Translations under genes and position numbers: made by a program | Origin: Prevotella sp. | Lineage (GTDB): Bacteria > Bacteroidota > Bacteroidia > Bacteroidales > Bacteroidaceae | Reading direction: 5' to 3' | DNA: 5,055 nucleotides | Assembly (NCBI GenBank): GCA_017632825.1 | Contig: JAGBQP010000106.1 | Coordinates: 1 to 5,055, forward strand | Shown here: one piece after another, positions 1,085 to 3,132 of the stretch | How positions within the stretch are numbered: position 1 is the first letter of the stretch | Layout: each line of letters starts with the position of its first letter | Notes under the pieces: model-generated | The model's input: the letters and a program-made list of their open reading frames with translations, nothing else | Databases searched by the model: none | Told to the model about the DNA's origin: nothing

Positions 1085-1095
1085 AAGTCTGTTAC

Positions 1096-1147
1096 ATCAT
1101 TTTTCGCCGCTTGATTGGGAAAGCCTATCAAGCGGCGAAATGATTTT
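1096..1147 (+). terminator. Hairpin terminator after sodB
   Basis: CGCCGCTTGAT (1105-1115) pairs perfectly with ATCAAGCGGCG (1127-1137). Three A-T pairs extend the stem, and after a 2-base bulge ATCA (1096-1099) pairs with TGAT (1141-1144). The 11-base loop is at 1116-1126, and TTTT follows (1144-1147). It begins 12 bases after the sodB stop. The T-rich left flank would let it work on the minus strand too. It ends only a few bases before the inverted-repeat element at 1150. Confidence 0.8.
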
Positions 1148-1149
1148 GC

Positions 1150-1196
1150 AAAAACACCTAACCACCTAACCCAACAGGGCTGAAACACCGATGTAC
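1150..1196 (+). repeat. Left terminal inverted repeat (47 bp)
   Basis: This is the left arm of the 308-bp element, exactly complementary to 1411-1457. It contains two CCTAAC motifs, then CCAACAGGGCTGAAAC and the 8-mer ACCGATGT. The match stops at both edges: the next outer bases are C on both sides, which cannot pair. Confidence 0.9.
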
Positions 1197-1210
1197 AGGG
1201 CGTTTGAAAG

Positions 1211-1238
1211 GGGTTAGGTGTTTTGAAACACCTAACCC
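1211..1238. other. Internal 13-bp hairpin of the element
   Basis: GGGTTAGGTGTTT (1211-1223) and AAACACCTAACCC (1226-1238) are perfect reverse complements with only TG between them. The arms repeat the same GTTAGGTGTTT string found at the element's ends, so this part of the centre seems derived from the terminal sequence. In RNA or single-stranded DNA it could pair with itself or compete with either arm. Confidence 0.7.
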
Positions 1239-1410
1239 AGAGGTACCCCTTTTTGCTAATGACCTAACCCTTTGAGAACATCGGTTTCTTCATCATCGGA
1301 CAGTCATGAAAGAATCACCGACTTTGATGATGCTTATAGAGGGTGGGGTAGATGATGGGTTAGGTGTTAGGTAGGTGTTTGGCAAAGAGGTAACCCACCT
1401 GAAAGCCTTT

Positions 1411-1457
1411 GTACATCGGTGTTTCAGCCCTGTTGGGTTAGGTGGTTAGGTGTTTTT
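1411..1457 (-). repeat. Right terminal inverted repeat (47 bp)
   Basis: This is the right arm of the 308-bp element, the exact reverse complement of 1150-1196, running from GTACATCGGTG to GGTTAGGTGTTTTT. Perfect identity over 47 bases implies either recent insertion or constraint on the paired structure. The sequence just outside (1458-1500) shows no feature I recognise. Confidence 0.9.
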
Positions 1458-1500
1458 CGAGATTTGTCTGCGTAGCGCGAGCTCCCAAAATACGAAACAT

Positions 1501-1530
1501 CAAAAAGAAGAAGTGCCACGAGGGTGACAC
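1501..1530 (-). terminator. Second, distal terminator for proS
   Basis: Read on the minus strand, GTGTCAC, a CCTC loop and GTGGCAC form a 7-bp stem with one G-U pair (plus-strand 1513-1530), followed by TTCTTCTTTTTG (1501-1512). It is weaker than the hairpin at 1541-1580 and lies just beyond it on the proS transcript, so it may catch readthrough. Confidence 0.45.
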
Positions 1531-1532
1531 GG

Positions 1533-1580
1533 GAAATAAAAAATACTCCATGACTTTTGTTCGAAAGTCATGGAGTATTT
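1533..1580 (-). terminator. Main intrinsic terminator for proS
   Basis: Positions 1541-1557 and 1564-1580 are perfect 17-base reverse complements around a 6-base loop. On the minus strand the hairpin is followed by a T-rich run (TTTTTTATTT including the base of the stem), so it terminates proS, whose stop codon lies about 70 bases upstream of it. On the plus strand only ATTTCTC follows, so it would be less effective there. Confidence 0.85.
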
Positions 1581-1624
1581 CTCAAAACTCATGGAGTTTT
1601 ATTCAAAACTCGTGGAGATCTATT
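1562..1624. repeat. Three 21-bp tandem repeats in the proS 3' region
   Basis: Three consecutive 21-base units begin at 1562, 1583 and 1604. They share the core (A)CTC/GTC-ATGGAG followed by T-rich bases; units 2 and 3 both start with CAAAACTC. Unit 2 makes its own hairpin, AAAACTC / ATG / GAGTTTT (1584-1600). Unit 1 is the right arm of the proS terminator, so the array probably grew by duplication of one terminator arm. All of it lies in the proS 3' untranslated region. Confidence 0.7.
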
Positions 1625-1650
1625 TTATAAATAAGGTGTGGCTCGGTAGC

Positions 1651-3132
1651 TTAGTAGCTGCGGGCAATGATGACGCGGGCCTTTGAGGGCTTGCCGCTCA
1701 CCATATCGACACCAGGCGTCTGCTCTACGCCGAAGGGCACACAGCGGATGGTAGCCTGCGTCTCTTCCTTAATCTTGGCCTCGGTCTCGGCAGTACCGTC
1801 CCAGTGGCAGAGGAAGAAACCGCCGTCCTTGACGCGCTCCTTGAACTCCTCGTAGTTGTCGCACTCGTAGATGCGGGCATCGCGGTAGGCGCGAGCCTTC
1901 TCGAAGATGTTCTTCTGGATATCCTCCAGCAGCTGCTCAACATATTCGGCAATTCCCTCGATGCTGCGTGTCTCCTTCTCCAGAGTATCGCGGCGCATCA
2001 CCTCGATGGTGCCGTTCTCCAAGTCGCGTGCACCCAGCACAAGACGTACGGGAACACCCTTCAGCTCGTAGTCAGCAAACTTAAAGCCGGGACGCTTGTT
2101 GTCGGCATCGTCAAACTTCACGGTGATGCCCTTAGCACGCAGGGCCTCGATGATGGGCGTCACCTCCTTGTTGACCAGCTCCATCTGCTCGGGCTTGGTA
2201 GCAATGGGGATGATAACCACCTGGATGGGAGCCAGCTTCGGCGGCAGCACCAGACCGTTGTCGTCGCTATGAGTCATGATGAGTGCACCGATGAGTCGGG
2301 TTGATACGCCCCATGATGTGGCCCATACATACTCGGGCTTGTTCTCCTTATTAAGATAGGTAACCTCGAAAGCCTTGGCGAAGTTCTGTCCAAGGAAGTG
2401 CGATGTACCTGACTGCAGCGCCTTACCGTCCTGCATCATGGCCTCGATGGTGTAAGTGTCCAGCGCACCGGCAAAGCGCTCGGTCTCGCTCTTCACACCC
2501 TGCACAACAGGCACAGCCATCCACTCCTCAGCAAACTTGGCATAGACCTTCAGCATCTTCTGTGCTTCGGCTTCGGCCTCCTCGCGGGTTGCATGGGCTG
2601 TATGACCTTCCTGCCACAGAAACTCCGATGTGCGCAGGAACGGACGAGTACGCATCTCCCAACGCATGACGTTACACCACTGATTGCACATCAGAGGCAG
2701 GTCGCGCCAAGAGTGAATCCAGTTCTTATAGGTATTCCAGATGATAGTCTCTGAAGTAGGACGGACAATCAGCTCTTCCTCGAGCTTGGCAGAGGGGTCC
2801 ACCTCAACGCCGCTCTTGTCCTCCTTGGCACGCAGACGGTAGTGGGTCACCACAGCACACTCCTTGGCAAAGCCCTCCACGTGCTCTGCCTCACGGCTGA
2901 GGAACGATTTCGGGATGAGCAGGGGGAAATAGGCGTTCTGTGCCCCCGTCTCCTTGAACATCTTATCGAGCTGCTGCTGCATCTTCTCCCAGATGGCATA
3001 ACCATAGGGCTTGATGACCATACATCCACGGACAGCCGACTGCTCAGCGAGGTCGGCTTTCACCACAAGGTCGTTGAACCACTGTGAGTAGTTTTCGGCC
3101 CTTTTTGTTAATTCTTTTAATTCTTTTGCCAT
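1651..3132 (-). CDS. proS: Prolyl-tRNA synthetase, archaeal/eukaryotic-type
   Basis: This encodes 493 residues, the normal length for the short class II enzyme that charges tRNA-Pro with proline in the cytoplasm. Class II motif 1 lies near 34-74 ([15 protein letters not shown] onward). RPTSE (124-128) holds the proline-binding TxE loop. Motif 2 spans about 157-182 ([20 protein letters not shown]), followed by [12 protein letters not shown] (241-252). Motif 3 is [10 protein letters not shown] (275-284). The anticodon-binding domain begins near 302 (PIQVVIIPI), and the C-terminal domain ends in ARSY, with the terminal tyrosine typical of this subtype. There is no editing insertion between motifs 2 and 3, unlike the roughly 570-residue bacterial type. 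The C-terminal domain keeps only three obvious cysteines (C424, C442, C464), so the four-cysteine zinc site of some relatives is incomplete. The gene stands alone, converges with sodB and diverges from the OmpA lipoprotein gene. Confidence 0.97.

Follow-up and report, generated by a model that had tools for sequence, protein, structure and literature searches.

The region between sodB and proS in contig JAGBQP010000106.1 of a Prevotella sp. carries a 308-bp gene-less element (positions 1150-1457 of the 5,055-nucleotide stretch analysed here, hereafter the window), which is a member of a family whose many copies are dispersed over Prevotella-group genomes. Full-length copies, approximately 1.5-1.9 kb long, have ends of this kind too, and the one gene that they enclose encodes a VapE-like SF3 helicase. 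We consider it likely that the window element is an internal-deletion derivative within this family, non-autonomous and dependent in trans on an iteron-binding initiator helicase.

The arms of the element are exact inverted copies over 48 bp (left arm 1150-1197, + strand; right arm 1410-1457, − strand), one base more than the perfect 47-bp ends described in an earlier note on this DNA, and their ungapped pairing extends to 74 nt with 63/74 matched. Exact inverted repeats in 200 dinucleotide-shuffled versions of the window reached a maximum of 14, which bears out the note's statement that such identity is beyond chance. The left arm consists of an A-run, a pair of words (1156-1171, +; ACCTAACC starting at 1156 and 1164), and the start of a core, CAACAGGGCTGAAACACCGATGTACAGGGCGTTTGAA (1172-1208, +), which by eye is similar to the core found in copies that have other words. 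An inner hairpin is predicted at 1211-1238, formed by an inverted word, a 4-nt loop, and a word (starts at 1212 and 1230), and is followed by single word copies at 1262-1269 (+) and 1358-1365 (−) and by the right-end word pair at 1436-1451 (−; starts at 1436 and 1444). The element is a palindrome of palindromes, running from end words through core, inverted word, loop, and words into their mirror image. The word (complement GGTTAGGT) occurs in eight exact copies within the element and nowhere else in the window, and the element contains two inverted arrays of this one word together with the shared core. Both strands fold much better than shuffles (z −13.6 and −14.9). One ORF of 62 aa starts in the right arm, and the search for a VapE remnant in the element found none (best E 0.19), in keeping with the earlier view that it encloses no credible reading frame. 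No match to window positions 1085-1660 was found in plasmid and phage records, and viral contigs did not contain the 25-mer taken from the arm. The motif GTTAGGT fits the GTTRRRY box of integron attC sites.

The element lies between two convergent genes, sodB (+, end at 1084) and proS (−, 1651-3132), as the note had described. The note had proposed aligning this locus among relatives; proS adjoins sodB in 0/80 sodB relatives. Among these 80, one locus (L007) carried a clear relative of the element, in another place and approximately 355 bp long. Matches to the element were found in 7 of the 17 genomes reached via the loci of sodB relatives (E<=0.01) and in 18 of 249 sampled genus-group genomes (E<=1e-6). 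Copies are present at other loci and in related genomes, rather than at one fixed locus with none elsewhere, the pattern that the note had associated with a local, non-mobile structure.

The ends in these copies keep a core around CAGGGCTGAAACxCCGATGTACAAAGGG, but the iterated word, 8-10 bp long and repeated several times at either end, is particular to each lineage (ACCTAACC, ATATAACC, CCTCCCGT, ACCTCACT, CCCTACAC, AGGTCCCT, and others). A perfect inner stem of >=7 was present in 71/130 arms, with 57 different sequences, as against 39/650 shuffled arms. Since the stems stay paired while their sequence changes, selection on a hairpin, which the note had offered as an alternative to insertion, is supported at the DNA level. 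The hairpin ends are probably recognised by the partner protein. At two places of one genome (L111:1070-1570 and L124:1060-1570), two elements with different words, one around GTACC and the other around GGTAACC, adjoin each other.

In L125, the same ends lie approximately 1.8 kb apart and enclose one complete 402-codon gene, the product of which contains VapE-like PF05272 and DUF3874 domains in a Pfam scan; L135, L139, and L129 show the same layout in other genomes. Where the note had suggested looking for a transposase with matching ends, the gene between matching ends thus proved to be that of a VapE-like SF3 helicase. The partner protein is approximately 400 aa long, carries DUF3874 at its C-terminus, and is related to the initiator PriRep1. 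Its sole sequence match in PDB was 7pds, PriRep1 with DNA, which was also the best fold match of the partner model (TM approximately 0.41; the ATPase core was poorly predicted). PriRep1 is a staphylococcal island initiator. An SF3 initiator related to PriRep1, as in a SaPI-type rep-ori, is encoded by the partner gene and not by the window, and the window element, a gene-less form with no remnant, does not have the VapE gene that stands between the arrays of the full-length form. The Pfam scan recognised no nuclease domain, HUH included, in the partner protein.

Matches to the VapE protein (E<=1e-40) were present in 230/398 sampled genus-group genomes overall, versus all 18 of the 18 repeat-bearing genomes. 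After exclusion of 11 duplicate loci and of ORFs outside 395-480 aa, an inverted-repeat score >=40 between the 5′ and 3′ flanks was obtained at 74/83 VapE loci, or at 71/80 without L129, L135, and L139, which had been found through the repeat; in a control set of ORFs (350-500 aa, near sodB) scored with almost the same flanks, 5/241 reached 40. A later locus set gave inverted ends at 53/58, two of the five misses having cut flanks and one further locus lacking an ORF. Inverted ends were undetected at 9/83 loci; VapE loci of this kind include L168, L193, L205, L207, and L211, the last with a cut flank. When close and distant relatives within the family were taken together, 14/19 loci had such ends, and the distant ones, at 48-54% identity, mostly had them.

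Longer proteins with a BT4734_N domain in addition to VapE were flanked by such ends at 11/23 loci (30 loci were fetched, and 7 were dropped for want of a recognised ORF). One of these 11, L128:1-2630, carries a gene for a 736-aa BT4734_N (primase-like) and VapE protein, and its flanking ends are identical at 104/105 bases. Directly next to the right end in L128 is the stop codon of a DNA methyltransferase-like gene. The close VapE form was found at E<=1e-80 in 16/201 family genomes and at E<=1e-100 in 1/296 genomes of a phylum sample, namely the search centre itself; outside the group it was not found in this 296-genome sample. More broadly, proteins of the partner type are very common: at least 6,949 homologues were counted at E<=1e-10 among 8,000 scored candidates. 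IMG/VR held only seven distant relatives, and PADLOC gave nothing convincing for the 400-aa form (weak matches, E 0.0019 or above).

Gene-less copies were compared with gene-bearing copies of the same genome. Genome G220 carries one 1866-bp VapE copy and four gene-less copies (472, 480, 511, and 604 bp) with a common word, ACTCCTACC, and a sixth place carries one arm. The arms of the G220 copies matched the query at 83-100%, and the 29 remaining genomes gave at best 86%, with a different word. The interiors of the gene-less G220 copies are similar to the VapE copy's leader region, and inspection by eye indicated that homology among the five copies stops at the terminal AAA-word, with unrelated flanks. 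The gene-less L238 retains the last 19 codons of VapE, as expected of a deletion derivative. In G279, the gene-less L242 and L244 are identical at 428/445 bases and have different loci and flanks. In both G220 and G279, the ends of the gene-less copies recur in a gene-bearing copy from that genome. Because of this shared word and the VapE tail of L238, the gene-less copies are probably internal-deletion derivatives of VapE elements. The window element fits this gene-less class, though it has no VapE remnant, and a VapE element with its word, ACCTAACC, is known from another genome, G015 (L129), which also carries the gene-less L095.

Words vary together with the C-terminal part of the partner protein. 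Genome G279 contains seven VapE loci with different words, 6/7 of which reached an inverted-repeat score of 40. The proteins of L147 and L171, which occur in one genome, share 98% identity over residues 1-324 and 36% over residues 325-402, and their words differ. Among 74 elements, word similarity tracked the VapE C-terminus with the rest of the protein held constant (partial Mantel r 0.25, 0/1000 permutations), and the correlation was highest at residues 371-400. From this covariation, the C-terminal domain is a putative repeat-binding domain. A column scan ranked residue 390 first. In the structure model this residue is located between the last helix and the last strand of the C-terminal domain, i.e. 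in the wing, with the numbering matched by hand in a model whose ATPase core is poor.

A rule, N390 with TA[AC]C words and H390 with TC[AC]C words, was fixed before testing. Residue 390 predicted the word class in 39/44 held-out elements, many of which are related to one another. Set A (L270-L288), the arms of which had been seen earlier and the residues not, gave 9/9 right, and set B, 40 loci fetched afterwards, gave 30 right, 4 wrong, and 1 tie; nine held-out elements with other residues at 390 yield no prediction. Overall agreement was 106/115, whereas of 36 two-state control columns the best reached 69%, and a cleaner word score devised after the fact agreed no better (101/111). On the tree, 10 supported independent pairs split on average into 6.8 that follow the prediction, 0.6 that go against it, and 2.6 without change, with a median p of 0.07, short of significance. 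Six of 11 close pairs differing at 390 switch word class as predicted, none in the opposite direction, and five are unchanged; close pairs with the same residue change word class in 3/35. With relatedness removed, the link between residue 390 and the word is only suggestive.

The flanks were searched for traces of insertion. The note had reported no visible target duplication at the assumed ends, which is to be qualified, as the 5-base sequence GATTT is found 3 bases outside each end of the window element (1142-1146 and 1461-1465). Direct matches in the own flanks of 102 VapE elements were slightly longer than those in mispaired flanks (4.69 versus 4.48; 4/200 mispairings reached the mean), so that a target duplication is possible, but at no fixed offset was a 4-5-base flank shared in more than 5/102 elements. 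When the joined flanks of L247 and L238 were searched against 398 genomes, none of the matches listed spanned the junction beyond a few bases, and gene order around these matches was not conserved. In some lineages, homology does not stop at the ends and takes in a DUF6078 gene or other flanking sequence; a DUF6078 gene is nearby in 20/50 VapE loci (L140-L189). At many VapE loci it comes after the right-hand array, for example at L184:1051-1512 (−) and L181:2950-3393 (+), and it can be part of the homology block.

The best-surviving alternative, though an improbable one, is that nothing moves: the arrays would be operators, origins, or terminators of a resident VapE gene, and the gene-less copies would be duplicated VapE loci decayed in place. 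The position of VapE between arrays resembles that of an initiator beside iterons, as described in PMC7581432; L238 reads as such a remnant with its VapE tail, and many loci share flanks past the arrays. Against decay in place, L242 and L244 have the same gene-less interior at different loci, homology in the five G220 copies ends at the terminal word, and most gene-less copies have both ends. This reading retains some weight because of the ambiguous flank matches, the homology beyond the ends in some lineages, and the lack of an empty site among the matches listed.

Slightly less probable is a conventional MITE, mobilised by a DDE transposase that has matching ends, the sort of insertion that the note had considered. 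The inverted ends, the interior without a gene, the intergenic site, and the copies elsewhere are all as expected of one, as are GATTT outside each end of the window element and the slightly longer direct matches between own flanks. However, full-length copies of many words enclose VapE, with no transposase seen between the ends, and the flanks show no common fixed-offset duplication. The description as MITE-like holds in part: there are related copies at other loci, whose ends in G220 and G279 are common to gene-bearing copies, but the partner gene is a helicase gene and the ends are hairpin word arrays, not plain terminal repeats. That the insertion is recent, as the note had suggested, may be read from the perfect arms.

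Selection on an RNA hairpin, as a regulatory RNA or a two-way terminator of the convergent genes, is very unlikely: the RNA folds are strong on both strands and the neighbouring genes are convergent, but the palindromy is symmetric on both strands, no Rfam 15 family reached its gathering score for the window element, and words covary with the protein at other loci. Repeats of the REP/REPIN type, mobilised by a RAYT (Y1 transposase), invite comparison through the intergenic palindromic doublets and the gene-less and gene-linked copies, as known for REPs and REPtrons (PMC3733652). They can hardly be the explanation when the linked gene is VapE and PF01797 is absent from 7/12 element-bearing genomes, including the multi-copy G220 and G279; a Y1 transposase was accordingly rejected as the general mover.

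For the preferred reading, a deleted element served by an initiator helicase, we propose the following mechanism. In a full-length member, one SF3 initiator helicase gene would be bracketed by two inverted arrays of a lineage-specific word, each able to form a hairpin. The C-terminal DUF3874 domain, winged-helix-like in the model, would read the word; SF3 helicase rings loaded at the words would open the hairpin ends; and host enzymes would copy and re-insert the element. Gene-less copies, keeping both ends, would be served in trans by a VapE protein with the matching word. The suggested division of labour, in which DUF3874 reads and the SF3 ring opens, follows SaPI Rep and SCCmec Cch2, the C-terminal domain of which recognises iterons beside their own gene, as described in PMC7581432. 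The cutting step would be the weakest link, because the partner protein has no nuclease domain in the Pfam scan. A bolder reading, which we hold tentatively and put at somewhat less than even, is that these are a class of transposable elements without a transposase, in which an SF3 helicase alone would spread itself and its gene-less derivatives via host enzymes, and lineages would avoid cross-talk by joint change of the word and a handful of residues in the C-terminal wing. It would include a partly readable protein-DNA code, N390 going with T-A-[A/C]-C and H390 with T-C-[A/C]-C words.

Parts of this arrangement have known counterparts, namely an initiator with its iterons and an element with its gene-less derivative. 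SaPI Rep/PriRep1 and Cch2 likewise pair an SF3-type helicase with element-specific short repeats next to its gene, whereas here inverted hairpin arrays lie on both sides of a lone gene, with many dispersed copies and gene-less derivatives (for SaPI Rep and Cch2, PMC7581432). The VapE copies inspected contain no island, integrase, or packaging genes. As with MITEs and autonomous IS, there is a larger element with a gene and there are short gene-less copies that have preserved its two ends, but the partner is a helicase, not a transposase, and no fixed target duplication was found. In parvoviruses such as AAV, an SF3 Rep helicase gene lies between inverted ends that form hairpins and carry iterated motifs; the VapE elements, in contrast, are chromosomal, and the Pfam scan found no HUH nuclease domain in their protein. 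REP/REPIN-RAYT systems also have intergenic palindromic doublets tied to one gene family (PMC3733652), but no GTAG tag was noted here and VapE takes the place of Y1. Within the open-licence PMC literature searched, DUF3874 was not mentioned, and the VapE-DUF3874 word-array family is apparently undescribed as a combination. If the preferred reading is true, one element family would account for many of the repeats found in rumen and gut Prevotella and for many of their 'helicase' or 'P-loop ATPase' genes. This family would test whether an initiator helicase can drive the spread of an element without a nuclease of its own and would offer natural protein-DNA word pairs for decoding winged-helix specificity.

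The surroundings of the element contain further repeats. A separate terminator-like hairpin with a 17-bp stem is predicted 3′ of sodB (1102-1140), outside the element, and stops 9 nt short of it. As the terminator scan of the window did not call this hairpin, the note's description of the element as touching the sodB terminator is only partly supported. A second intergenic hairpin, with perfect 17-bp arms (1541-1557/1564-1580), is located at 1528-1614, where a 21-nt unit with a CATGGAGT motif occurs three times; this word is unrelated to that of the element. Finally, an exact 16-base direct repeat (181-196 and 257-272) is located at and just past the end of the upstream gene.
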